From contig JAJYPW010000021.1 in the NCBI GenBank assembly GCA_021795055.1, positions 1-10,152 on the forward strand: a stretch of 10,152 nucleotides of DNA, read 5' to 3'. How positions within the stretch are numbered: position 1 is the first letter of the stretch; every line of letters starts with the position of its first letter. The position numbers and the translations under genes are program-made. Shown piece by piece: positions 1 through 10,152 of the stretch. The stretch is from Thermoplasmata archaeon. Its GTDB lineage: Archaea > Thermoplasmatota > Thermoplasmata > Thermoplasmatales > Thermoplasmataceae. Below the pieces are notes generated by a model that was given only the letters and a program-made list of their open reading frames with translations, searched no databases and was not told the origin of the DNA.

Positions 1-456
1 GAACTGGGGCCAATAGGTATTTTCTATGATCCAGGAGGACACGCTATTATGTTGAGTTTTCATACAACGATCGCAGGTAATATTTCCAGCAACATTCACC
101 CGTCCGGCCTACAGTTCCAGGCAACTAATCGGTATCACGGTTCCGGCAATGTGCCTCAGGGGTTTTTGTTTGTGATCCCCAGTTCCAAAGATAACTGGAA
201 TCTTTCTATCGGCAACACGCAAAACAATTACAATGCAACCAGCTTTTGGACCCCATTCGAATTTCTTAACCAGCCATCGAGGTCAATACCTGGAGGATAT
301 AGCGTTGATCGGTACACTTTCGGCTACACGACTTGGTCGGTGATGATACAGTTTTCTCTCGCCGTTGGATTACGTACCTTTAATCTTTCAGCAGAATTGA
401 CAGGCCTTGACAAGCCTGTTTTTGCCTCGGTGGAAATAGCATTGGATGAATCGTAG
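1..456 (+). CDS. C-terminal part of an unrecognised, possibly secreted protein
   Basis: The reading frame is open from the first base of the window to a TAG at 454-456, so this is probably the 3' end of a longer gene. An internal start at ATG 49 is also possible, because AGGAGG lies at 32-37, 11 bases upstream. I do not recognise the family. The visible 151 residues are rich in Asn, Ser, Thr, Gly and aromatic residues, have few charges, and read like alternating beta strands. They contain several N-x-S/T sequons (NIS, NAT, NLS) and no clear membrane helix. This composition is typical of extracellular or S-layer-type archaeal proteins, but that is inference. Only 12 bases separate the stop from the transposon-derived repeat at 469, so the original downstream context may be disrupted. 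Confidence 0.6.
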   Translation, partial: ELGPIGIFYDPGGHAIMLSFHTTIAGNISSNIHPSGLQFQATNRYHGSGNVPQGFLFVIPSSKDNWNLSIGNTQNNYNATSFWTPFEFLNQPSRSIPGGYSVDRYTFGYTTWSVMIQFSLAVGLRTFNLSAELTGLDKPVFASVEIALDES

Positions 457-468
457 GTGATAAAATGT

Positions 469-674
469 GCCCTCCTCAAGAAATAATGGCCTGAGAACAA
501 TCACTGAAAATGAAGTAAGTCCAGAAAACATACAACCGTAAATCCATAGCTTCGTCCAGATAATTGAACAGACCCGGGAATATTACAAATAAGAGAGTGT
601 CCATTATCCATTGAAAGCTGACAAGCTGGGCCTGTGGACTAAAGAATGGTGGAAATAAATCTTCATTTGAAAAT
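469..674 (+). repeat. 206-bp direct repeat, copy 1 (decayed transposase-derived fragment)
   Basis: This segment matches 8148-8354 in the same orientation, with about ten substitutions (mostly transitions) and one single-base indel, roughly 95% identity. It has no intact ORF. One plus frame reads as a broken protein containing FVQIIEQTREYYK and LGLWTKEWWK, interrupted by stops. The first part resembles the stretch before the second catalytic Asp of IS630-type transposases. That agrees with copy 2 lying directly behind an IS630-like N-terminal fragment. The match to copy 2 stops abruptly at both ends. The IS630 assignment of this piece alone is tentative; the repeat itself is directly visible. 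Confidence 0.85.
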
Positions 675-722
675 GGCTTTGCACCTAAATTCACTCAAAA
701 AGTGGTTTTTGAGTGCAAAGCC
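675..722. repeat. 48-base imperfect palindrome next to repeat copy 1
   Basis: The inner arms 692-701 (CACTCAAAAA) and 706-715 pair perfectly over 10 bp around a GTGG loop. The outer arms GGCTTTG (675-681) and CAAAGCC (716-722) continue the helix for 7 bp, with a 10-base bulge (682-691) on the left side. It starts exactly where the match between the two 206-bp repeats ends. It could be a transcription terminator for the upstream gene, or a pair of fused terminal inverted repeats left by a transposon. There is no T-tract after the stem, which weakens the terminator reading. Confidence 0.7.
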
Positions 723-730
723 ACCCAACA

Positions 731-746
731 CGAGATTTTAAATAAA
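731..746 (+). promoter_or_regulatory. Archaeal TATA box for the hydrogenase-related operon
   Basis: TTTTAAATA at 736-744 is a good archaeal TATA box, preceded by a purine-containing CGAGA that could act as the BRE. Initiation about 25 bases downstream would start the transcript near 766 and give a leader of about 60 bases before hyfC. This is the only strong TATA-like element between the palindrome and the first operon gene. The start site is inferred. Confidence 0.55.
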
Positions 747-770
747 GGTTGAAAATTCCAATATCCGGTG

Positions 771-835
771 ATGACGTCCACCCATAACCGCTGAAGCAGC
801 TGATGACGTCTGTTTCGCAGTGAGAACATGACGTC
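771..835 (+). promoter_or_regulatory. Leader with three ATGACGTC copies: two mini-ORFs, then the hyfC start
   Basis: ATGACGTC occurs at 771-778, 803-810 and 828-835. The third copy is the start of hyfC (ATG ACG TCG). Each of the first two also opens a reading frame: 771-794 encodes MTSTHNR and stops at TGA, and 803-823 encodes MTSVSQ and stops at TGA. The leader thus presents three starts with the same Met-Thr-Ser opening, only the last leading to a long protein. The core GACGTC is also a perfect palindrome, so the copies might instead be operator half-sites. An inverted repeat, ACCCATAAC (780-788) and GTTATGGGT (836-844), brackets the hyfC start codon. Regulation by any of these is inference. 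Confidence 0.4.
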
Positions 836-1775
836 GTTATGGGTAGAGACAATAATACAGATAGTTGGAGTTTTGGCTCTGGCGCCGCTTGTCACGGGCA
901 TACTGAACAGGGCAAAAGCCTGGTTCGAAGCCAGAAAGGGACCTCCTATTTTCCAGCCTTACTATGACCTGGCTAAGTACATTCGGAAGGAAATCCTGCT
1001 TCCTGCCAACTCTACCAGGATATTCTATCTGGTGCCATTCTTCGTTTTCGGCATATACCTGCTCATTTCATTCGTGATTCCCGTGATCCTTCCATTTCCC
1101 GATTACCTTTCAGTGTCTGTGGACTTTCTCGGGGGCGGCCTTCTCTTTGCACTCACGTCTGTGCTCCTGATCCTCGGGGCACTAAATTCAGGAAACAACA
1201 TATCTGCCATGGGGGCGAGCCGTTCGGCAACTTTTTCAGCTTACGGAGAGCCGACACTCATAATGGTTTTCTTCGCTGTGGCGCTGATCTCAGGAACCAA
1301 CAATCCTTACGTCACCAATGCGATCCTGTCAACATCCATATCTGGCTACCTCGGGCTCTATCATCTCTTCGCGACGGTCGCATTTTTTATGCTGCTGCTG
1401 TTCGAAACCGGCCAATTACCCCTTGAGAGCAGCTCGAACATGGAACTCGGCATGATAGACGAGGCTCGTGTCTACGAATATTCCGGACCTCATCTTTTCA
1501 TGATAAAGTACTCTTCCATGATTAAGCTCTACCTTCTTGGCTCCGTCTTTCTCAACGTTTTCGCCTTCCCCTGGTTCATGCAGACGGGCATTGCCGGTTC
1601 TATTCTTGACATTCCCATAATGCTGGGGAAATGGTTGGTTCTCATTGCAATTCTTGTTATTGTGAACGAGAGCCTTGGAAAGGTCAGGCTTTTCAAGATC
1701 CAGGACTTCCTCTCGATCTCCTTTGCCCTTTCAATATTCTCGGTAATTACTCTCACGCTGGGAGGGATCCTGTGA
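828..1775 (+). CDS. hyfC: HyfC/NuoH-like membrane subunit of a hydrogenase-related complex
   Basis: This 315-residue protein is a hydrophobic membrane anchor of the HyfC/HycD/NuoH family, the subunit that links the soluble redox arm to the ion-pumping arm. Its length is typical. ARKGPPIFQPYYDLAK at 35-50 is the conserved NuoH-type cytoplasmic loop after the first helix. FETGQLPLE at 192-200 carries the conserved Glu (E193), and ELGMIDEARVYEYSG at 206-220 is the long acidic loop expected to face the large and small subunits. About eight membrane helices can be recognised. The ATG at 828 is the first usable start: the only earlier in-frame ATG (771) runs into a TGA at 792. The Shine-Dalgarno signal is weak. 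It is the first gene of the operon, and its TGA overlaps the GTG start of the next gene by four bases. Confidence 0.93.
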   Translation: MTSLWVETIIQIVGVLALAPLVTGILNRAKAWFEARKGPPIFQPYYDLAKYIRKEILLPANSTRIFYLVPFFVFGIYLLISFVIPVILPFPDYLSVSVDFLGGGLLFALTSVLLILGALNSGNNISAMGASRSATFSAYGEPTLIMVFFAVALISGTNNPYVTNAILSTSISGYLGLYHLFATVAFFMLLLFETGQLPLESSSNMELGMIDEARVYEYSGPHLFMIKYSSMIKLYLLGSVFLNVFAFPWFMQTGIAGSILDIPIMLGKWLVLIAILVIVNESLGKVRLFKIQDFLSISFALSIFSVITLTLGGIL

Positions 1776-2392
1776 TATACTCTGAAATAGAGGGAATTCT
1801 GGGTGCGCTGATCCTTGGGTCGACCCTTGTCGTTCAGACGAGATCTTACATCAGGCCTATGATAAACACCGTAGTTACTCAGTCAGTCATCCTTGCAGTT
1901 ACGGCAATCATTATTGGCATCACCACATCTGCGCCTGACCTCATCGTCCTGGCAGGATTGGTAGTGGTCCTCAGGGGAATTCTGGTAAGACACTTCCTTA
2001 GCCTGAGGCTTCCAAAGACCAGGATGTTCGTAAAGGAGACATCCCATGGAGTCACCTCCGTGACCATGTACAGCGTCATAGCGCTGATCTTATCGTTCCT
2101 CGTATACAGGTACACCTTCTTTCCAATCATTCAGGCTCCCCTTGGTGCTATTGGGTTTTCGATGATAGTCCAGGGGCTCCTCCTCATAACCACCAGGCGC
2201 AACAGCTTCGCTCATTTCATCGGATATGTTGAGGAGGAGAACGGAATCATCTTCATGAGCCTCACGATAGTGCCGCTGCCATTCCTGATTGAAATTAGCG
2301 TCCTCCTTGATGTTCTTGCGCTCATAATTGTCGGAACGGGTCTTGTGACAGAGAATGTGGAGCATCCACGCGTTGAGGAGCTGATGGGATGA
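1772..2392 (+). CDS. hyfE: HyfE-like membrane subunit
   Basis: This 206-residue integral membrane protein matches the HyfE family, whose C-terminal part is related to NuoK and sits between the antiporter-like subunits and the HyfC anchor. I chose the GTG at 1772, which overlaps the hyfC stop as GTGA and follows GGAGGG at 1761-1766. A longer frame opening at 1631 lies inside hyfC and is not needed. Roughly six helices are visible. The GYVEEENGI stretch (151-159) and FLIEISVLLD (171-180, with E174 and D180) resemble the conserved membrane-associated acidic positions of the family. The protein ends in a short charged tail, EHPRVEELMG. The stop overlaps the next gene as ATGA. Confidence 0.9.
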   Translation: MIYSEIEGILGALILGSTLVVQTRSYIRPMINTVVTQSVILAVTAIIIGITTSAPDLIVLAGLVVVLRGILVRHFLSLRLPKTRMFVKETSHGVTSVTMYSVIALILSFLVYRYTFFPIIQAPLGAIGFSMIVQGLLLITTRRNSFAHFIGYVEEENGIIFMSLTIVPLPFLIEISVLLDVLALIIVGTGLVTENVEHPRVEELMG

Positions 2393-3732
2393 ACCTGGTT
2401 ATCCTCTTCCTGATTGCAATACCGGCAGTATTCTCGCTGGGCTATTTCGCCAGGCAGTTTAAGCACATGGCAGTGCTTTCGGCATCGCTGACTGTGGTTC
2501 TGTCCCTGTACATAATGGTCACGCAGCTTGATCTTTCCGGCGATTTCCTGGTGGATTATCTCTCCAGGTACTTCATCATAGCAATATCTTCCATATACCT
2601 GCTTTCAGTGGTCTTTGGACTGGGATACCACCACAAGATGGGCGAGTCGAGGAACATGAGGCTCCACCTGTCCCTAATGGATCTCTTTGCTTCCAGTATG
2701 CTCTTCTCCATGACGGTCAACAACTTTGGGCTCCTGTGGTTCGGCATAGAAGCTACAACGGTGTCCAGCACGCTTCTCCTGGTGATCGAGAGAGAGCCGC
2801 TGAAGATAGAAGCCGCCTGGAGATATGTGATAATCGTTTCCGCTGGGTTGACCATCAGCCTGCTTTCCGTGCTGGTGATGTACTATGACTTCAACAACCT
2901 CACCATCAGCTACCTCCTGATCCATCATCCGGCTTACTCAGAACTCACAGCCATTGCGGCAGGTACTGCCCTGATAGGATACGGTACAAAGATAGGCCTG
3001 TTTCCAATGCATACATGGCTTCCGGATGCCCACAGTGAAGCTCCATCAGAGATAAGCGCGATGTTCTCAGGAGTACTCCTGCCAGTCGCAATTTATGCGC
3101 TTTACAGGGTTTATGAGGTAACTGCAAGCCCCAGCATAACAGACCTTTTCATTTTCTTTGGAGTTGTAACAATCCTGTTCTCTGCCATTATGTTGCCCTC
3201 CCAGCGCTTCTACAAGAGAATGTTTGCATATTCAACAATGGAGAACATGGGATTGATCCTCATCGGCTTCACCATTGGTGGAATTGCGCTCACTGGGGCC
3301 TTGATTCTCCTGGTAACCCATGCGTTCGGGAAGGGAGCAGCCTTCTACTCTTCCGGAAACATACTTGAGAACTATGAGTCGAAGAAGATTTCTGACGTTA
3401 CGGGACTCAGGGAGAGAATGCCTTATACATCCGTATCACTCATACTATCCTCGCTTGCAGTGACAGGGGCGCCTCCGTTCGGCACTTTTCTCGGCGAGTT
3501 CCTCATACTGACAGGGCTCTACCTTAATGGATATTTCCTGCCAGTGGGGCTAATTGTTGCATCTCTCCTGATTGCATTTGGGAGCGTCAACTTCCATGTC
3601 TCAAGAATGGTGTTTTCTGGTCATGAAGAACCCGTCTCGGAGTCCTCTAGGTCGCAGGTGGCAGTGGCGCTCAGTGCGTCTGCAATCACTCTCCTGATTC
3701 CATTTCTTTTCCTTGCATACGGGGTGATCTGA
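2389..3732 (+). CDS. hyfF: HyfF-like (NuoN/NuoM-type) antiporter-like subunit
   Basis: This 447-residue protein belongs to the proton-translocating antiporter-like family (NuoL/M/N, MrpD), subgroup HyfF. The residues that form the ion path are present: a Glu in WFGIE (E121), a Lys in GTKIGLFPMHTWLPDAH (K201, followed by the conserved His), the AYSTMENMG motif at 280-288, and a His/Lys pair in THAFGKGAAF (H311, K315). The length and about 13-14 helices fit a complete subunit without the lateral helix of NuoL. Retention of this chain argues that the complex still pumps protons or sodium. It overlaps hyfE by four bases (ATGA) and hyfG by one base (TGATG), as expected of translationally coupled subunits. 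Confidence 0.93.
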   Translation: MNLVILFLIAIPAVFSLGYFARQFKHMAVLSASLTVVLSLYIMVTQLDLSGDFLVDYLSRYFIIAISSIYLLSVVFGLGYHHKMGESRNMRLHLSLMDLFASSMLFSMTVNNFGLLWFGIEATTVSSTLLLVIEREPLKIEAAWRYVIIVSAGLTISLLSVLVMYYDFNNLTISYLLIHHPAYSELTAIAAGTALIGYGTKIGLFPMHTWLPDAHSEAPSEISAMFSGVLLPVAIYALYRVYEVTASPSITDLFIFFGVVTILFSAIMLPSQRFYKRMFAYSTMENMGLILIGFTIGGIALTGALILLVTHAFGKGAAFYSSGNILENYESKKISDVTGLRERMPYTSVSLILSSLAVTGAPPFGTFLGEFLILTGLYLNGYFLPVGLIVASLLIAFGSVNFHVSRMVFSGHEEPVSESSRSQVAVALSASAITLLIPFLFLAYGVI

Positions 3733-4955
3733 TGGTTGGAGAGGATGTCATAACAGGAGTCCTTGAATCCGGCGGAGCGGAATATGAAATCGCATCGGGA
3801 TTTGGTGTTCCATTTTGGAAGAAAGCTATTGGCAGGGACATTGAAGGGCGCGAAGATTTCAAGGCATGCGTGGGCAGGTTTGATGAAAAGGCAGAGGGTG
3901 CAGACGTTCTCAATTTCACATACGGTCCGTCAACCGGAGGGTTGACTGAATCGTGCAAATTCAACATATACACCTACGGTGAGCGAATTCTTTCGCTCAG
4001 GCCGGAACCCGCATACAAAGACAGGAAGTTGCAGGTTTCTGGATCGGGACTGGAAATGGCAAACCTCAAGATTGAACGTTACTGCGGGCCATTGAGCCCT
4101 TTCTATTCCGGCATGCTTACCGCTGCTGTGGAGGCAATCATGGGAAATGGCGAGAACAACGATCTCCGGCTTGCAAGGGTAATCATGAACGAGGTCAGCA
4201 GGATCTCTGATCACATGCACGTGATTGCAAAGCTCGCGGAGGGTGCATCGCAGAACGTGGCGTACAACCTGCTCTTCGCCCTGAGGGAAAGGCTTCTCAG
4301 GCTTGTCTCAAAAAGATTTGGCCACCGCTATTTCTTCGGGATCAATGGCTTCGGGGGCCTTGCCAGAAGCGCAGACTTCAGGGGCATTTCCTCAGAGGTT
4401 GGAGAAATAGCGGACGAGTTCCGGCAGATATGGATCAGGCTGGAGAATTCAAGGATATTCATCGACAGGATCCAGGGAACTGCCACTCTCAAGAGGCCAT
4501 GGATGGTCGGCCCAGCAGCAAGGGCTGCAGGGTTGCGCACAGACACAAGGACAGAAGGTTCATGCCTGCGGTATGATGATCTTGATCTTGAAGTTACCAG
4601 CACGACCAGTGCGGATACCCTGGCTAGGGCCCTGGTGCGGAAGGACGAGATCTTTGCATCTGCACGCATCATAGAGAAAGCAGAAAGCATGATTCGTGAG
4701 GTCCCGGTAGCAGGCCGAATGAGTCTGGTAGGCATCAACGGTGAGATTTCTGTGAGGACTGAAACCCCCGGGGGAGATTCCCTTATGCGGGTTTCACTGG
4801 TAAACGGAGTGGTGAGGAAGATATACATCAGACCATCGTCACTGCAGAATCTTGCGGTATTCACTTATGGCATCAAGGAAAACTTGCTCACCGACCTCAC
4901 TTTCGGGTACGAGGGGCTGGGCATTCATGTTTCAGAGGTGGGGGGCGTACTGTGA
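3732..4955 (+). CDS. hyfG: HyfG/NuoD-like large subunit lacking the [NiFe] ligands
   Basis: This 407-residue protein is related to the group 4 [NiFe]-hydrogenase large subunit (HycE/HyfG) and to NuoD. Family signs are FTYGPSTGG at 62-70, IERYCGP at 114-120, and EVSRISDHMHVIAKLA at 154-169, equivalent to the ER-IANHLGD helix. In true hydrogenases the N-terminal motif is CGxCxxxH. Here C118 remains, but the second Cys is Leu (L121) and the His is Tyr (Y125). The C-terminal DPCxxC motif is absent: the matching end reads TFGYEGLGIHV (390-400). There is no cleavable tail after it, so no processing peptidase is needed. The N-terminal 50 residues are only a remnant, if anything, of the NuoC-like domain of HycE. 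The active site therefore cannot hold Ni-Fe in the usual way. It fits the Ehr class; its reaction is unknown. Confidence 0.9.
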   Translation: MVGEDVITGVLESGGAEYEIASGFGVPFWKKAIGRDIEGREDFKACVGRFDEKAEGADVLNFTYGPSTGGLTESCKFNIYTYGERILSLRPEPAYKDRKLQVSGSGLEMANLKIERYCGPLSPFYSGMLTAAVEAIMGNGENNDLRLARVIMNEVSRISDHMHVIAKLAEGASQNVAYNLLFALRERLLRLVSKRFGHRYFFGINGFGGLARSADFRGISSEVGEIADEFRQIWIRLENSRIFIDRIQGTATLKRPWMVGPAARAAGLRTDTRTEGSCLRYDDLDLEVTSTTSADTLARALVRKDEIFASARIIEKAESMIREVPVAGRMSLVGINGEISVRTETPGGDSLMRVSLVNGVVRKIYIRPSSLQNLAVFTYGIKENLLTDLTFGYEGLGIHVSEVGGVL

Positions 4956-5584
4956 AATCATGGCTTACATATGGCTTGATGCGTAAGCGACTGACTACCA
5001 GGTTCCCTTCCATGGCAGCCGAAGAGGTACCTCTCTGGACCACCACCCCGGTCAGCACCGGGATCGGAGAGGCACAGTGCCCTGCCAATGCAATCAAAGG
5101 CACGGCGGTTGAAATTGGAAGATGCATATCATGCGGCTACTGCAGTCCCGCCTTCCAGCCGGATGGGGACCCGAGGACATCGATCATTCGATCAACAGAG
5201 AAGGCATTCAGGAAATCGTTCCACATCTATCTGTTCGATGCTGGATCCTGCGGATCCTGCAATCTTGAGATCAAGGCGCTGGGAAATCCTTACTACGATA
5301 TGAGCCGTTTGGGAATATCGTTCTGTGCAACTCCAAAACATGCGGATGCACTCATTGTCGTGGGGGTCCTTGCCGACGGGATGAGCGCTCCCCTGAAGAA
5401 GGCGGTTGAAGCGCTTCCCTCACCCAGGCTGGTCTTTGCCGTTGGAGCGTGTGCGATATCAGGAGGCATCATCGGAAAGTCCATATCCGGGATAGTTGAA
5501 GCGGATGTAGTTGTGCCGGGTTGCCCACCAAACCCGTTTACTATCCTTGATGCTCTGCAGAAATCCAGGGGAGACAGATCATGA
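4952..5584 (+). CDS. hyfI: Half-ferredoxin fused to HyfI/NuoB-like small subunit
   Basis: This 210-residue protein has two parts. Residues 90-205 form the NuoB/HyfI fold that holds the proximal [4Fe-4S] cluster: CGSC (C100, C103), GACAISGG (C167) and PGCPPNPF (C191) supply four ligands. Residues 1-70 look like a shrunken HycF/HyfH ferredoxin. YGLMRKRLTTRFP resembles the start of such proteins, and C43 in CPANAI together with C58, C61 and C64 in CISCGYC makes one complete [4Fe-4S] site. The ligands for the usual second cluster are missing; the CxxCxxCxxxCP Cys before Pro is replaced by Phe68. The fusion shortens the normal two-gene arrangement. The GTG start at 4952 overlaps the hyfG stop as GTGA. 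Cluster binding is inferred from cysteine spacing. Confidence 0.88.
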   Translation: MKSWLTYGLMRKRLTTRFPSMAAEEVPLWTTTPVSTGIGEAQCPANAIKGTAVEIGRCISCGYCSPAFQPDGDPRTSIIRSTEKAFRKSFHIYLFDAGSCGSCNLEIKALGNPYYDMSRLGISFCATPKHADALIVVGVLADGMSAPLKKAVEALPSPRLVFAVGACAISGGIIGKSISGIVEADVVVPGCPPNPFTILDALQKSRGDRS

Positions 5585-7458
5585 TTCTTCCTCTGCTCCT
5601 GGTTGCAGCATTCATCCCCGTCTTGATCTCCGCGTTTAGCGTAACTAACTCATACCGGGCAGGTACCATGCTCTATTCCGTCATAGCAGCGACTTCGTTG
5701 TATGCCCTGCTGGCAGGAACCACAGCCCATGTGATTGTCAGCAGTTACCTGGCATTCTCCATTGACCCCCTGTTTTCAGCATTCTTGCTCATAATATCCA
5801 CGGTGTGGGCAGTTACCTCATTCTTCTCAATTGAATACGACCGAAAGTCTAGGCCAAACGCTCTTTCCTTCCACCTTGCCATACTGGCCATGATGGTCGT
5901 GATGATCTCCGGATCATTCCCTCTGTTCCTTTCCGGATGGGAAGTAATGACAATTTCCGGGTACCTCCTCATTGGTTACAGGAAGGGCATGAACAGCATT
6001 CCTCCCTACGTTTTCCTTGTCTATGGCGAGCTGAGCACGCTTCTTATCATGGTGATGGGTGCGGGTATGTACTTCCAGTCAGGCACCATGATCTTCACAG
6101 CAGAGCCTTACAACCAGGTCATCGTATTCCTTGGGATAATGGGCTTCTTCATCAAGATGGGTGTCATGCCTTTTCAGATAACGGAATGGTTACCTATTGC
6201 TCATGGGAATGCCAGCACCAACGGTTCAGTACTGTTCAGTGCAGCGATGACTACCGTGGCACTGTACTCCGTATTGAGATTCATAACTATCTCGGACCCC
6301 GGCGAGGTATTTGGACTTCTCATAATGGGAATAGGCGCATTCTCACTTCTTTTTGGGTCGATATACTCCGCCTCCGCTGAGCACGTTAAAATGCTGCCTG
6401 CTTACAGCACCATAGAGAATAGCGGTGCAATGCTCATCTTCACCGGGGCATTCGTTGTCATGGACACACTGAACCAGATGCAGATAGCCACGTTTGCGCT
6501 CGCCGGGCTGTTGATATTTGCCTTTTCTCATGCGCTTTCGAAGAGTGGGCTCTTCATGTTCGCCGGGATCATGGAAGAAAGTACCGGAGCAACGGAGATC
6601 AAGAGCTACCATGGAGGCAACAACTCGACATTCTACGGTGCTGGAGGGTTCCTGAATTCAGTTTCTCTTGCCGGCATGTTGCCTCTTGGAGGAGGCGTGG
6701 GAGAGTGGATGCTCCTTGAGACTCTTTTCATCATGTCGATTATCGGGAACTCCGTCACAAGTCTTGTATCCATAATAGTGGGCGCCACTGCTGCCCTTGG
6801 CGGAGGGATATCCATAATTTCCATGACCAAGATCTTCGGGTTCGGATCAAGAGGGGCTCATGAGAAGGGGAGGAAAGAGGGACCGATGAGGATCTCCTTG
6901 CTGGCCATGGGCGCAGGCGTGATCCTGCTGGGAGCTTTCTCGACCCTGTACGTTGCTTTGGTCAGCAATATGATAGGAGGATATACCGGCATAGCTGCGA
7001 CCACCATACTCGGTGGAGCGCTCATTGTGCCGCATGACTTCCTTCTGACTTCATCCAGCAGTACTGGCCCATTTGGCGGAATATCTCCGCTTTTCACTGC
7101 ACTGTTCATAACATTGTTCACCGGAGTCTTGCTCCTTTCATTCAGGGGCGCAAGCTCCAGAACAGTTGTGAACTGGAATGGGGGGATAGAGGAGGAAGAC
7201 AAGCTGCACTCCTTCGCCTATGCTAACTCACTTCGCCTAACCATGAAGAGATTCTACCTGACTACTGAGGAGAGGAAAGCAGGCAAATACTCCGAGAGGA
7301 CCTTCGATGCATTCTGGCTGGTCATCATATTCCTGGCAAGAAAGACTGTGGCCCTTTCAAGAATCGTGGGGAGATGGGTAATGAACAGCAGCCTGATGGC
7401 TTATGTGTTCTACATAATGGTAGCGTTCTTTGCCGTCATGATTTACATTGCGATCTAG
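5581..7458 (+). CDS. hyfB: HyfB-like (NuoL/MrpD-type) antiporter-like subunit
   Basis: This 625-residue membrane protein is the second antiporter-like subunit and the last gene of the operon. Conserved ion-path residues are visible: E121 in GWEVMTISGY, K192 in FIKMGVMPFQITEWLPIAH followed by the conserved His, AYSTIENSG at 274-282, and H317/K321 in FSHALSKSGLF. The C-terminal part after about residue 535 has a charged linker (GIEEEDKLHSF) and two further hydrophobic stretches, as in HyfB proteins; there is no clear NuoL-type lateral helix. The ATG overlaps the hyfI stop by four bases. In enteric hyf operons hyfB comes early. Here it is at the end, which is a different gene order but still one transcription unit. 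Confidence 0.93.
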   Translation: MILPLLLVAAFIPVLISAFSVTNSYRAGTMLYSVIAATSLYALLAGTTAHVIVSSYLAFSIDPLFSAFLLIISTVWAVTSFFSIEYDRKSRPNALSFHLAILAMMVVMISGSFPLFLSGWEVMTISGYLLIGYRKGMNSIPPYVFLVYGELSTLLIMVMGAGMYFQSGTMIFTAEPYNQVIVFLGIMGFFIKMGVMPFQITEWLPIAHGNASTNGSVLFSAAMTTVALYSVLRFITISDPGEVFGLLIMGIGAFSLLFGSIYSASAEHVKMLPAYSTIENSGAMLIFTGAFVVMDTLNQMQIATFALAGLLIFAFSHALSKSGLFMFAGIMEESTGATEIKSYHGGNNSTFYGAGGFLNSVSLAGMLPLGGGVGEWMLLETLFIMSIIGNSVTSLVSIIVGATAALGGGISIISMTKIFGFGSRGAHEKGRKEGPMRISLLAMGAGVILLGAFSTLYVALVSNMIGGYTGIAATTILGGALIVPHDFLLTSSSSTGPFGGISPLFTALFITLFTGVLLLSFRGASSRTVVNWNGGIEEEDKLHSFAYANSLRLTMKRFYLTTEERKAGKYSERTFDAFWLVIIFLARKTVALSRIVGRWVMNSSLMAYVFYIMVAFFAVMIYIAI

Positions 7459-7487
7459 ACTCATATAATCACTCACTGCATCCGCAG

Positions 7488-7497
7488 CACTTTTTAT
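7488..7497 (+). terminator. Possible T-tract terminator after the operon
   Basis: CACTTTTTAT lies about 30 bases after the hyfB stop. Archaeal transcription often ends at short T-tracts without a hairpin, so this is a plausible end for the operon transcript. The stretch 7459-7550 otherwise shows nothing I can identify. Confidence 0.25.
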
Positions 7498-7550
7498 GCG
7501 AGATTTCAGCGTAGAGTCGCCCTCCATGCCCCTGCAGTATCTTTCAGCAG

Positions 7551-7868
7551 TTGACATCCTCCCACCCCAGGGGGCGTGGGATTCCTGCTTCATATAGTCG
7601 CAACTCGCAGACCTCCTTTCAAGAGTTTCGTCGTCGTGACGCTTTCCACAGGCGAGAATCCGGGAATGCCCTTCCCCACTCCTGTTAGACCGATGTTGCG
7701 GATGTTTATGGAGGCGTTAAGGTCCAGGTGCATTTCAAGACCGCAGCACCGGCAGTGGAATGTTCTGTCCGGGAGTTTCAGGTCTTGTTTCCTGTTTCCG
7801 CAGCCCGGACAGAGTCTTGATGAGGGATCAAATCCCCCAGTCTCTACGAGTTCCGGTCCTATACGCTC
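7551..7868 (-). mobile_element. IS200/IS605-type remnant with its right end preserved
   Basis: The segment holds the 3' part of a tnpB gene and, beyond its stop, a typical right end. On the plus strand this reads TTGACATCCTCCCACC at 7551-7566, followed by an imperfect hairpin whose arms CCCAC (7561-7565) and GTGGG (7576-7580) still pair. The TTGACATCC...GGGATTCC pattern is a well-known end of IS605/IS1341-type elements and corresponds to the 3' end of the TnpB guide RNA scaffold. The left end, any tnpA and most of tnpB are missing. The inner boundary near 7868 abuts an IS630-type fragment on the other strand, so one element was probably inserted into or recombined with the other. Confidence 0.75.
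7590..7868 (-). pseudogene. tnpB: TnpB C-terminal fragment (IS605-type RNA-guided nuclease)
   Basis: The minus-strand frame ending at 7590 matches the C-terminus of TnpB, an RNA-guided DNA nuclease related to Cas12. FDPSSRLCPGCG (from about 7832 downward) followed by DRTFHCRCCG is the zinc ribbon, with both CxxC pairs intact. LDLNASINI corresponds to the DRDxNAAxNI motif and keeps the last catalytic Asp. About 90 residues are recognisable out of the roughly 370-400 of a full TnpB. The RuvC-I and RuvC-II parts and the N-terminal region are absent, so the protein cannot be an active nuclease. The frame stays open to an ATG at 7997, but the residues before about 7868 are antisense to the IS630 fragment and are not TnpB-like. 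Confidence 0.82.
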
Positions 7869-8354
7869 ATGACGGATCACATAAGGAAGAGCTGGTCTTC
7901 CCTTAAGAATATGAGCAGATCCACTGTCTTTGAGATCCTCAATGAAGCGGAGATAAGACCGCACAGGATCAGGTATTATGTGGAAAAGAGGGACCATGAC
8001 TTTTGGGAGAAGATGAAGGAGACCTTGGGGATGAAGTCATTCCCTAAGATTCTGCTGAGTTGGAGTGAAGAAATTGGATTTAGGCTTGAGAGCAACCTAA
8101 GGGGGAGAGTTTATTTCAGAGGAATGTTCTATGACCAATTATACCACGCCCTCCTCAAGAAATAATGGCCTGAGAACAATCATTGAAAATGAGGTAAGTC
8201 CGGAAAACATACAACCGTAGATCCATAGGCTTCGTCCAGATAATTGAACAGACCAGGGAATATTACAAATAAGAGAGTGCCCATTATCCATTGAAAGCTG
8301 ACAAGCTGGGCCTGTGGACTATGGAATGATGGAAATAAATCTTCATTCGAAAAT
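7869..8354 (+). pseudogene. Decayed IS630-type transposase
   Basis: The frame 7869-8165 contains SRSTVFEILNEAEIRPHRIR, followed by YYVEKRDHDFWEKMKE. This is the helix-turn-helix and linker typical of IS630-family DDE transposases. The later GFRLESNLRGRVYFRG resembles the first catalytic region (usually DExGF...RGW), but the Asp is replaced. The frame stops at 8165 after about 98 codons, where a functional protein needs over 300. Broken frames in the following 190 bases (FVQIIEQTREYY, then NKRVPIIH one frame over) look like the region before the second Asp. The true N-terminus is missing at the junction with the TnpB fragment. The gene is dead through truncation, stops and frameshifts. The family call for the 5' part is firm; the 3' part is tentative. 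Confidence 0.75.
8148..8354 (+). repeat. 207-bp direct repeat, copy 2
   Basis: This is the same sequence as 469-674, in the same orientation and about 95% identical. The one length difference is an extra G in ATAGGCTTCG (copy 2) against ATAGCTTCG (copy 1). Here the repeat is continuous with the IS630-type fragment upstream, which shows where the repeated piece came from. The two copies bracket the whole operon at a distance of about 7.5 kb. Confidence 0.9.
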
Positions 8355-8408
8355 ATACAATTATATGCATTCGACTTTATATCACGAGATTCGACCGGAC
8401 CATGCCAT

Positions 8409-8464
8409 AATATCTATCCTGTTTCCCGGTTCAGTAATCACCAAAGCGATGGTAGATAGATATT
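8409..8464. repeat. 10-bp inverted repeat upstream of the Lys-rich gene
   Basis: AATATCTATC at 8409-8418 and GATAGATATT at 8455-8464 are perfect inverted copies separated by 36 bases. The right arm ends nine bases before the TATA box of the next gene, so the pair could be a regulator binding site. The rest of 8355-8471 shows no gene or known element. Confidence 0.35.
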
Positions 8465-8472
8465 CCGATAGC

Positions 8473-8480
8473 TTTTTAAT
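8473..8480 (+). promoter_or_regulatory. TATA box giving a leaderless or near-leaderless transcript
   Basis: TTTTTAAT lies about 25 bases ahead of the ATG at 8502, the usual archaeal TATA-to-start-site distance, so the mRNA would begin at or next to the start codon. A GGAGG at 8482-8486 is 15 bases from the ATG, too far for a good ribosome site and probably not in the transcript. Confidence 0.55.
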
Positions 8481-8501
8481 TGGAGGATACTTAACTTCTA
8501 T

Positions 8502-8750
8502 ATGTGGCCGTTTAAGAGAAAAACGAAAGCTGTTTCCGAACCTGCGAAATCTGCTCCAGAAAAAGCCAAGAAACCATCTGCTGAACCTGCCAAGGCAGCC
8601 CCCAAGCCTGCAGCCCCTGCAGCTGCAGAACCTTCGTCTGCTCAGCCAGACTCTGCAAAACCTAAGAAGACAACCAAGTCCACAACGTCTTCAAAGGGAT
8701 CCGGCAGCAAGACCTCAGGAACTAAAAAATCACCCAAGAGCGGAAAGTAG
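8502..8750 (+). CDS. Small lysine/alanine/proline-rich basic protein
   Basis: This 82-residue protein has an N-terminal MWPFKRKTK followed by low-complexity sequence built from Lys, Ala, Pro, Ser and Thr. I count 19 Lys and 1 Arg against five acidic residues, a net charge near +15. There is no Cys, no hydrophobic core and no membrane segment, so it is probably disordered. The middle has EPAK/APEK/AEPAK units, and the end is a Lys-Ser-Thr-Gly tail (KSPKSGK). Such composition recalls the tails of histone H1-like nucleoid proteins or ribosome-associated proteins, but composition alone does not show function and I do not recognise a family. The well-placed TATA box supports it being real. A longer overlapping frame (8314-8760) in another phase is probably a shadow. 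Confidence 0.7.
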   Translation: MWPFKRKTKAVSEPAKSAPEKAKKPSAEPAKAAPKPAAPAAAEPSSAQPDSAKPKKTTKSTTSSKGSGSKTSGTKKSPKSGK

Positions 8751-8768
8751 TATCATTTAACCGAGTCG

Positions 8769-8781
8769 TTGAATTTTTCAA
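8769..8781. terminator. Short A/T hairpin between convergent genes
   Basis: TTGAA (8769-8773) and TTCAA (8777-8781) pair around a TTT loop in the 66-base gap between the convergent Lys-rich gene and the MarC gene, with T-rich sequence on the plus strand just after it. It may help end transcription from either side, but the stem is weak. Confidence 0.25.
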
Positions 8782-8816
8782 TCTTCTTATTGACGAGAAT
8801 CCGTTCTTCCATCCTT

Positions 8817-9448
8817 TTATGCAATACTCTGTACGAGGGAAGTTATACCTTCCACGATGAATGATATTCCGATTGCTGCAATAAGCAATCCCATTATTCT
8901 GGACAGCAGCAGTGAACCAGTCTTTCCTATCTTCTCGAATATCCTGGCCGAATATACCAGAATCACGAAAGACACTATTAGCACCGCCAGAATGGCAAAT
9001 ATCACTGCAAGCCTGTCATAGAGTGTGACGCTCTTGAGGTTGAAGTATATGATGGCGGTTGTGATCGACCCCGGACCGGCTAACAGCGGAGTTCCAAGAG
9101 GTACCACGCCGATGGAATCCTTCTGCAGAGATTCCTCCTCTTCTGTTGCAGTGAGTTTGAGGTTTTTCCCTGCATCATGTCGAAAGCGACCTTGAAAACC
9201 AGTATGCCGCCGGCTATCTGAAAATCCGAAATACCAATACTCAGACCCTCGAATATGTAAATCCCAACCAGCATAAATCCAAAAAGCATTCCTGCCGCCA
9301 CCATCAAGCTCTTCTTGATGACCCTCGCCCTCTCTTCTCTGGTGTATCCCTCAGTCAGGGTGACGAGGATTGGAACTGCACCTATAGGATTCAGGATTGA
9401 AAATATGGCTACAAAAACGGTCACGAAGAACAGGACTATCTCAAACAT
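8817..9448 (-). pseudogene. marC: MarC-family (UPF0056) membrane protein with a one-base frameshift
   Basis: Two adjacent minus-strand frames together make a full MarC-family protein of about 210 residues with six membrane helices. The N-terminal part from ATG 9448 carries LNPIGAVPILVTLTEG. The C-terminal part, ending at 8817, carries PLLAGPGSITTAI, the second family signature. The frames meet in the loop before the second half. Adding one A to the A5 run at 9163-9167 gives a smooth MMQGKNLKLTATEEEESLQ, like the acidic loop of other members. As it stands, the first frame runs off into NLCRRIPSAW and stops. This may be a real mutation, a homopolymer sequencing error, or ribosomal slippage: the junction reads G GGA AAA, a canonical -1 slip heptamer. 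The transport substrate of the family is not firmly known. Confidence 0.85.
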
Positions 9449-9537
9449 CTTTTGAAAGGGAAGTTTTGATTGTCTCTTAATCCTTTCAGTCCGGAACAGC
9501 GCGAAACTGCTCTCTCCAGATTACGCAGGAATAATAC

Positions 9538-9558
9538 GAGGAATTAGAGAAATTCCTC
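9538..9558. repeat. 8-bp hairpin in the marC-pckG divergent spacer
   Basis: GAGGAATT (9538-9545) and AATTCCTC (9551-9558) form a perfect inverted repeat around AGAGA. It lies between the divergent marC and pckG genes, about 46 bases upstream of the pckG TATA box, where an operator could sit. No T-tract follows. The rest of the spacer 9449-9600 shows nothing else clear. Confidence 0.4.
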
Positions 9559-9597
9559 ACCCAGATAGCATGTTGCAGGCAAATCAGCAAGATCAAT

Positions 9598-9610
9598 GAA
9601 AATGTTTAAG
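9598..9610 (+). promoter_or_regulatory. TATA box for pckG
   Basis: GAAAATGTTTAAG contains a TATA-like TTTAA at 9605-9609 with an A-rich BRE-like stretch before it. Initiation about 26 bases downstream would start near 9633 and leave a leader of roughly 14 bases before the ATG at 9647. Confidence 0.45.
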
Positions 9611-9646
9611 GGATGTTCCCATTAAGTTGCCGGGGACGTTTAGGTC

Positions 9647-10152
9647 ATGTTTATTGAGGACAAGGCTGATTTTGTCAAAGATAGTGATGTTTACAGAGAG
9701 ATGCTGGGCAAGAGCAGGTTTATCTCCTCCCTGAAATCTTACAATAACCAGGTTGCCGGGTCGCTTGAGTCCGACATTATTGAGGTCGCAAGGCTTCTTG
9801 AACCTGACAGTATATTGGTTGTGGACGATGATGATCGCTCAGATCTCATCTCCCAGATGCTTGATACCGGGATGTTGATCAGGCTCAACCAGGAGCATTT
9901 TCCCGGCAGTTACCTGCACAGGAGCAACATCAATGACGTTGCCCGCAGTGAAAAAGACACTTATATTTGCACAGAAGGAACAGAGGGGGATGCCGGACCC
10001 ACAAACAACTGGCTGCACACCAAGAAGGCACTGGGAATTCTGACGCCTATCCTTAGCAAGTCAATGAAGGGAAAGACGATGTATGTTGTCCCATACTGGC
10101 TCGGGCCCATTGATTCGGAATTCGGCGATGCAGGAGTGGAGATCACAAACAA
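9647..10152 (+). CDS. pckG: Phosphoenolpyruvate carboxykinase (GTP), N-terminal part
   Basis: The frame from ATG 9647 runs without a stop to the window edge, giving the first 168 residues of a protein that is normally about 600 long. It matches GTP-dependent PEP carboxykinase, which interconverts oxaloacetate and phosphoenolpyruvate with GTP/GDP in gluconeogenesis or anaplerosis in the cytoplasm. YLHRSNINDVAR at 89-100 is the family motif ending in the substrate-binding Arg. GPTNNW (117-122) and MKGKTMYVVPYWLGP (140-154) are also characteristic, and GVEITN continues toward the GVQITDS motif at the edge. The first 50 residues are more variable. The catalytic Cys loop and P-loop lie beyond the window. 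It is divergent to marC and has its own promoter, so it is not part of the redox operon. Confidence 0.92.
   Translation, partial: MFIEDKADFVKDSDVYREMLGKSRFISSLKSYNNQVAGSLESDIIEVARLLEPDSILVVDDDDRSDLISQMLDTGMLIRLNQEHFPGSYLHRSNINDVARSEKDTYICTEGTEGDAGPTNNWLHTKKALGILTPILSKSMKGKTMYVVPYWLGPIDSEFGDAGVEITN

Follow-up and report, generated by a model that had tools for sequence, protein, structure and literature searches.

A predicted hydrogenase-related complex of a Thermoplasmata archaeon lacks the Ni-Fe ligands and keeps a conserved glutamate and hydrogenase-type proximal-cluster cysteines

What does a complex built like a group 4 [NiFe] hydrogenase do when the ligands of its metal site are gone? 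The question is raised by the window analysed here, a 10,152-nucleotide stretch of DNA from a Thermoplasmata archaeon of the family Thermoplasmataceae (assembly GCA_021795055.1, contig JAJYPW010000021.1, positions 1 to 10,152). The contig carrying it, C130, belongs to a 915-kb metagenome-assembled genome (MAG) that is 62% complete and consists of 140 contigs. Its nearest named relatives are the Thermoplasmata MAGs WY2.bin136 (L003, 81% identity) and FK_Sedi_B_Bin.205 (L004, 88%); L004 and locus L069 of G013, a genome from another genus, are apparently the same contig, with equal identity. The window contains an intact operon of six plus-strand genes, HyfC-E-F-G-I-B, in which neighbouring genes overlap by 1–4 bases. 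An earlier reading, made from the letters alone (hereafter the sequence-only reading), had described a hydrogenase-like large subunit without its Ni-Fe site in an intact pump operon, and both the alignments and the six genes bear this out:

828..1775, plus strand: HyfC/NuoH-like membrane anchor subunit, first gene of the operon (PF00146, 103 bits)
1772..2392, plus strand: HyfE-like membrane subunit (NF008556, 35.8 bits, under the cut-off of 136; no match in a Pfam search; homologous in related operons)
2389..3732, plus strand: HyfF-like antiporter subunit (NF005042, 480 bits, cut-off 437; NuoM alignment)
3732..4955, plus strand: HyfG/NuoD-like large subunit without Ni-Fe ligands (PF00346, MbhL and HycE matches, alignment)
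4952..5584, plus strand: HyfI/NuoB-like small subunit with a fused N-terminal one-cluster ferredoxin domain (PF01058, 73.5 bits; cysteine census)
5581..7458, plus strand: HyfB-like antiporter subunit (NF005046, 433 bits, cut-off 460; NuoM alignment)

Judged by its sequence, the operon encodes a six-subunit energy-converting hydrogenase-related (Ehr) complex. The large subunit is homologous to those of group 4 hydrogenases and to NuoD, the [NiFe] cysteine pairs are absent, the NuoB-like small subunit carries cluster ligands, and NuoH-like and antiporter-like membrane subunits lie in the same operon. All six genes are under purifying selection, with ratios of nonsynonymous to synonymous substitution rates (dN/dS) of 0.05–0.14 relative to G013.

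The large-subunit reading frame is open (3732-4955, plus strand, 407 residues); its product matches PF00346 at 73.9 bits (cut-off 24) and the solved structures of MbhL (6cfw_L) and HycE (7z0s_E). In an alignment with Escherichia coli HycE, HyfG and NuoCD and archaeal relatives, the HycE motifs DRVCGICGFAHS ... SLDPCYSCTDR correspond to ERYCGPLSPFYS ... GLGIHVSEVGG in the window. The four cysteine ligands of a group 4 [NiFe] hydrogenase, CxxC...CxxC, thus fall on C118, L121, H399 and E402, and the motif histidine on Y125; in MbhL the same places are C68, C71, C374, C377 and H75 (numbering from the available part of PMC11228991).

4083..4106, plus strand: C118-G-P-L121...Y125, the former CGxCxxxH motif (alignment, state counts)
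4911..4937, plus strand: E394...H399...E402, the C-terminal motif, in which the former DPCxxC is residues 397-402 (4920-4937) (alignment)

The first motif is reduced just as the sequence-only reading had described. The second had been placed at residues 392-397, five residues too far towards the N terminus; its equivalent is G397-I-H399-V-S-E402, with E402 aligned to the glutamate of the NuoD motif GEVDR. Intact cysteine pairs are not found elsewhere in the protein, because it has only four cysteines (46, 75, 118 and 278) and no CxxC. The loss is general in the window's type of complex (Ehr-I), represented in our state counts by 33 rows from 32 loci (one gene is split in two): none has a cysteine at 121, 399 or 402.

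Against this loss stands what has been kept.

3948..3950, plus strand: codon of E73, aligned with MbhL Glu21 (alignment; role of Glu21 from the available part of PMC11228991)
5078..5143, plus strand: ferredoxin-type ligands C43, C58, C61 and C64 (cysteine census)
5249..5524, plus strand: proximal [4Fe-4S] ligands C100, C103, C167 and C191, with the CxxC spacing of hydrogenases (cysteine census)

E73 aligns without gaps to Glu21 of MbhL, a residue to which simulations assign the roles of proton shuttle and trigger of the β1–β2 loop (PMC11228991, in part). It is present in all 33 Ehr-I rows (one of them, from a C-terminal fragment, counts only through a chance of the alignment), in 7/7 rows of a second Ni-less type, Ehr-II, and in 4/4 NiFe hydrogenase rows. 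By contrast, none of the six NuoD rows holding this region has an equivalent, and the accessible portion of PMC7684303 reports none in MBS.

The small subunit retains its proximal cluster ligands, as had been claimed: C100, C103, C167 and C191 are present in 32/32 Ehr-I small subunits. The four cysteines of the ferredoxin domain, a one-cluster domain with the pattern CP + CxxCxxC, are present in 30/32. Residues 100-103 read CGSC, the CxxC of hydrogenases and not the adjacent CC of NuoB. The motif aligns without gaps to MbhJ and HycG and is not three residues shorter than that of MBH, as it would be in MBS; this comparison ran through MbhJ and HycG, MbsJ having been matched in the search and not aligned directly. 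In family f5 (loci L089 and L092), one of two Ehr small-subunit types has Ser at C61, so that CxxCxxC is lost.

For the antiporter-like subunits, six NuoM positions were compared and 11 Ehr-I loci aligned. At the places of NuoM E144, K234, H348 and E407, HyfF keeps E121, K201, H311 and E370, and HyfB keeps E121, K192, H317 and E375. The places of K265 and H322 are not kept (P232/N286 in HyfF, T225/N280 in HyfB); in E. coli these places are Asn and Asn in HyfF, Lys and Asn in HyfB. The proposal that the Glu/Lys/His chains of both subunits are conserved thus holds for four of the six places in each, and fails for the K265 and H322 places. Three loci (L079, L080 and L085, of G012, G130 and G019) have T or V at the E407 place of HyfB while their HyfF keeps the Glu, and in G330 both HyfF E121 and HyfB H317 are lost.

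Trees of 49 and 55 rows, with the split gene left out, place all Ni-less rows except NuoD in a single clade (support 100/99 and 100/100, respectively). This clade is sister to HycE/HyfG (96/89 and 99/98), and Ehr-I forms a group of 32 rows within it (100/100 and 100/99). In the 55-row tree the deep branches are less secure, since one row (Mycobacterium branderi) is long and 13 others have an unusual composition. The gene order C-E-F-G-I-B is found in 32/32 Ehr-I loci, 30 with the full set of six and two truncated ahead of HyfC. Ehr-II comprises seven loci (L100-L104, L106 and L107) from four other Thermoplasmatota families (f8, f9, f10 and f23), with the signatures ERxSGD and S-x-x-LSY-x-GN. 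Its order is antiporter-C-E-F-G-I in 6/7 loci, and two of the six contain an additional HycF-like gene. A two-cluster ferredoxin fusion occurs in 5/7 loci. Within the window's family, the large subunit (E <= 1e-60) occurs in 61/77 genomes, in 18/19 genera and in 30 of the 35 genomes that are at least 90% complete; the five such genomes without it are G001, of the window's own genus, and four of genus g6. One genome, G005, carries a second Ehr copy whose large-subunit gene is split into two open reading frames (ORFs) and is apparently frameshifted (L076, 7714-8921). The window's genome also encodes canonical Nuo subunits apart from the operon, NuoA, B, C and D having been seen on contig C8.

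Could the complex nevertheless be a hydrogenase? HypD, a scaffold protein for the Fe-(CN)2CO group by its E. coli annotation, was found at E <= 1e-10 in 0/77 family genomes, a set in which 35 are at least 90% complete and the window's own MAG is 62% complete; a control search was positive in 4/14 known genomes, E. coli included. On sequence grounds, [NiFe] maturation looks absent from the family, and the negative HypD search in all 77 genomes makes a Ni-Fe site very unlikely. Together with the alignment and the tree, it supports the earlier assignment to a conserved Ehr-type complex that is not a hydrogenase. We give next to no credence to a working hydrogenase with unusual ligands: its overall likeness to HycE/HyfG and one cysteine at the first ligand place are outweighed by three missing ligands of four, by the negative HypD search and by the secondary origin suggested for C118.

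That cysteine had been taken for a remnant of CGxCxxxH, a claim that the tree does not support. Residue 118 among the 33 Ehr-I rows is N in 19, A in 4, C in 3, T in 2, S in 2, V in 1 and Q in 1, with one gap. Among the Ni-less rows of both trees, Cys at 118 is confined to the window, G013, L003 and G017, which group at bootstrap 100 in each. C118 therefore appears, by parsimony, to be a secondary regain in the window's small clade: the minimum on the tree is three changes between Cys and other residues, one of which, with NuoD as outgroup, is a gain in this clade. We accordingly rejected the idea of a relic cysteine, Asn being commonest at 118 (19/32 lettered rows).

Two further candidates, a replacement metal site made of N118, H121 and E402 and a histidine shifted from 121 to 399, were dropped because of the counts at both places: residue 121 is H in 14 rows, F in 10, Y in 5 and L in 3, and residue 399 is W in 16, Y in 5 and H in 3, among others. 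A replacement metal site is thus not visible, because the old ligand places 118, 121 and 399 vary widely. The notion of a rebuilt active site stands in part: E73, E/D394 and E/D402 are fixed in the Ehr-I rows, as are R116, D388 and G397, while the former ligand places are not.

The pattern of retained and missing parts is best matched by ferredoxin entry, a non-H2 acceptor and Glu-triggered pumping, and we lean, if only slightly, towards a complex that would oxidise ferredoxin, reduce a small acceptor other than H2 and pump ions, with donor, acceptor, coupling and direction all deduced. A low-potential donor, likeliest ferredoxin, would reduce the [4Fe-4S] cluster in the small subunit's fused ferredoxin domain. 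From there electrons would move to the proximal [4Fe-4S] cluster and on to the small acceptor in the former Ni-Fe cavity. E73, on the β1–β2 loop, would supply protons and move the loop, as proposed for MbhL Glu21, and the loop movement would drive the passage of ions through HyfC and both antiporter-like subunits. Quinone is our first guess for the acceptor, though a doubtful one. More tentative still is a fuller version, in which the complex would be a ferredoxin-driven proton pump with a metal-free reduction site. E73 and the proximal cluster would be retained, the Ni-Fe hole would be filled by Asn, His, aromatic and acidic residues, the acceptor would be new to characterised members of the superfamily, and the six genes would form a self-contained module moving between archaeal genera.

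Several observations weigh against the favoured reading. The window's large subunit has neither the His nor the Tyr that binds quinone in NuoD, and hence no quinone site of the complex I type as such. The variability of places 118, 121 and 399 is not what one would expect of an invariant catalytic site. Of the six subunits, the large one is the least conserved relative to the same-genus genome G003 (53% against 62–82%), and an AlphaFold2 prediction from three sequences reached a mean predicted local distance difference test (pLDDT) score of 37.4, too low for use. Finally, plasmid relatives in M. branderi and Allomeiothermus silvanus lack the proximal-cluster cysteines and keep the membrane subunits. 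Relatives outside Thermoplasmatota were sought in E. coli and plasmid records only (127 plasmid matches, seven places fetched, six used). In the two plasmid small subunits, GSCxxC is replaced by GSNGSD (L131) and GNTGLD (L136). The architecture can thus persist once electrons no longer reach the pocket, an argument against one redox function throughout the wider family. These small subunits (L131 9087-9881, M. branderi; L136 9053-9925, A. silvanus) keep the one-cluster ferredoxin motif. On two Azospirillum plasmids (L133 and L137), the large subunit of a group 4 hydrogenase has intact cysteine pairs and is encoded near an aldehyde ferredoxin oxidoreductase gene.

The same points favour the strongest functional alternative, a non-catalytic or redox-sensing antiporter whose peripheral arm gates an Mrp-like exchanger with no substrate turnover: the pocket residues vary, the large subunit is the most diverged of the six from G003, and two bacterial relatives have shed the proximal cluster but not the membrane subunits. 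We nevertheless regard it as unlikely, since the proximal cysteines are invariant in archaeal Ehr-I and the ferredoxin cysteines nearly so, and E73, R116, D388 and G397 are fixed.

Less probable again is a sulfane-sulfur (polysulfide) reductase like MBS, in which a proximal cluster with one iron not bound by Cys would split polysulfide in the empty cavity and protons would not be needed. MBS belongs to the same superfamily, has lost Ni ligands and likewise has no NuoD His/Tyr pair (PMC7684303, in part). However, it retains two of the four Ni cysteines whereas the window has none by descent, and the glutamate that it lacks is kept in all Ehr rows compared.

About equally improbable is a formate-linked complex, either formate hydrogenlyase-like or a formate dehydrogenase–Ehr assembly, fed with electrons by a formate dehydrogenase partner. 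PMC6349859 (in part) proposed such a partner for the Ehr of lineages sibling to Cyanobacteria, and the seen part of PMC3750248 notes a formate hydrogen lyase cluster in Ferroplasma Fer1, to which clusters in Eplasma and Gplasma are orthologous. Among ORFs of at least 90 residues in the fetched flanks, some of them short, no neighbour family lies beside the operon in more than 6/32 loci, so a dedicated partner gene is not in sight. None of the six neighbour families recurring in at least 3/32 loci resembles formate dehydrogenase (one example of each judged), and the G013-like block in the window contains the six operon genes only.

How did the operon reach this genome? The block and its surroundings comprise the following features:

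750..7559, strand not assigned: block 88.4% identical to G013, likely a transferred cassette (DNA comparison)
469..674, plus strand: left copy of a direct repeat of about 207 bp (DNA comparison)
8148..8354, plus strand: right copy, 95% identical to the left (DNA comparison)
7590..7997, minus strand: C-terminal remnant of an IS200/IS605-like TnpB (PF07282; NF038281 and NF040570 below cut-offs)

Positions 737-7482 are also 80.8% identical to L003. Large subunits from the window's own genus are far less similar (53% in G003, 44% in G002), and G001 has none, whereas the vertical markers follow the genus: NuoB identity is 95% to G001, 87% to G003, 86% to G002 and 76% to G013, and identity of the phosphoenolpyruvate carboxykinase (PEPCK) of the right flank is 87%, 62%, 58% and 50%, respectively. 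From these sequence comparisons, acquisition of the six-gene cassette by horizontal transfer appears likely.

An assembly artefact, in which a real operon of a G013-like organism was joined to the MAG contig at repeat or insertion-sequence (IS) elements, is a clearly smaller possibility. The G013 identity ends on both sides near the repeats and the IS remnant, the MAG is incomplete and fragmented, and the left flank has no place in G001 (1-456 matched neither the fetched region nor anything elsewhere in that genome), so the comparison with G001 yields no clean empty site. But the right flank is native, with 87.4% DNA identity to G001 from 8392, and another contig of the MAG, C133, begins with the window's end. 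The large-subunit gene itself is no artefact, because full-length relatives exist elsewhere. A third copy of the repeat was sought in the incomplete MAG and not found, and the TnpB remnant matches nothing in the stretches fetched from G013 (L069 and L112), L003, L004 and G001. The ORF at 1-456 is cut by the contig start and has no Pfam match. Of 41 genomes searched, the MAG itself holds a single diverged paralogue (C107) and G019 holds two; the remaining 39 gave nothing. On the right, a MarC-family gene (8817-9448, minus strand) lies in two overlapping frames, where G001 has one ORF of 236 residues (L109 9489-10199), reflecting a frameshift or an assembly error.

Loss of the Ni motifs in Thermoplasmatales was already known. 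In 2013, putative group 4 hydrogenases without both Ni/H2-binding motifs were reported in Thermoplasmatales (the acid mine drainage 'plasmas'), 'possibly indicating some other function' (PMC3750248); the part of that account available to us gives no residue-level detail, ferredoxin fusion, kept Glu or transfer. Nothing on Ehr residue detail, ferredoxin fusion or transfer in Thermoplasmata was found in the search listings of one open-licence library, nor on these points in the portion of PMC8975820 at hand. Six consecutive Ferroplasma acidiphilum genes, FAD_0579-0584, listed as subunits of 'Mrp/hydrogenases and related complexes' (PMC5473848, in part), are probably an Ehr operon of the window's type. 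New here is the residue-level and evolutionary detail: the kept E73, the fused one-cluster ferredoxin domain with hydrogenase-type proximal cysteines, and the likely cassette transfer. Ehr complexes sit between hydrogenases and complex I and have no established reaction in the literature cited. Because the coupling Glu and the proximal cluster are kept and the metal site is lost, coupling and catalytic parts could be studied apart; the apparent transfer of six genes suggests a module needing only the host's general electron carriers.

Among known systems, the Thermoplasmatales complexes of PMC3750248 share with the window, as far as that excerpt goes, kinship to group 4 hydrogenases and loss of both Ni motifs. 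Ehr complexes from Sulfobacillus (PMC4378227) and from Margulisbacteria/Saganbacteria (PMC6349859), each source available in part, likewise lack the Ni motifs and keep antiporter-like subunits; both are likened to the window by description and not by sequence, and those of Margulisbacteria/Saganbacteria have a proposed formate dehydrogenase partner. Complex I NuoD/NuoB shares the fold family and the absence of Ni ligands, but the window lacks equivalents of His38 and Tyr87, has CxxC in place of CC, falls in a separate clade and has no NuoE/F/G-like gene in its operon. Pyrococcus furiosus MBS resembles the window in its lost Ni-Fe site and, in what PMC7684303 offers in part, in using ferredoxin electrons and pumping ions, both of which we infer for the window; it differs in lacking the Glu21 equivalent, in its shortened Cys motif and in a proximal cluster held by three Cys. 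The M. branderi plasmid operon (NZ_AP022607, L131) has the same C-E-F-G-I-B order and the same one-cluster fusion of ferredoxin and small subunit, the latter shared by the Allomeiothermus relative; unlike the window, both have lost the proximal-cluster Cys, and the M. branderi large subunit is longer (506 residues). E. coli Hydrogenase-3 and -4 (HycE and HyfG) differ from the window in their four Ni-Fe cysteines, their Hyp genes and a separate HycF/HyfH in place of the fused one-cluster domain, yet they are its nearest catalytic relatives on the tree and share with it the Glu at the E73 place and the CxxC spacing of the proximal cluster.

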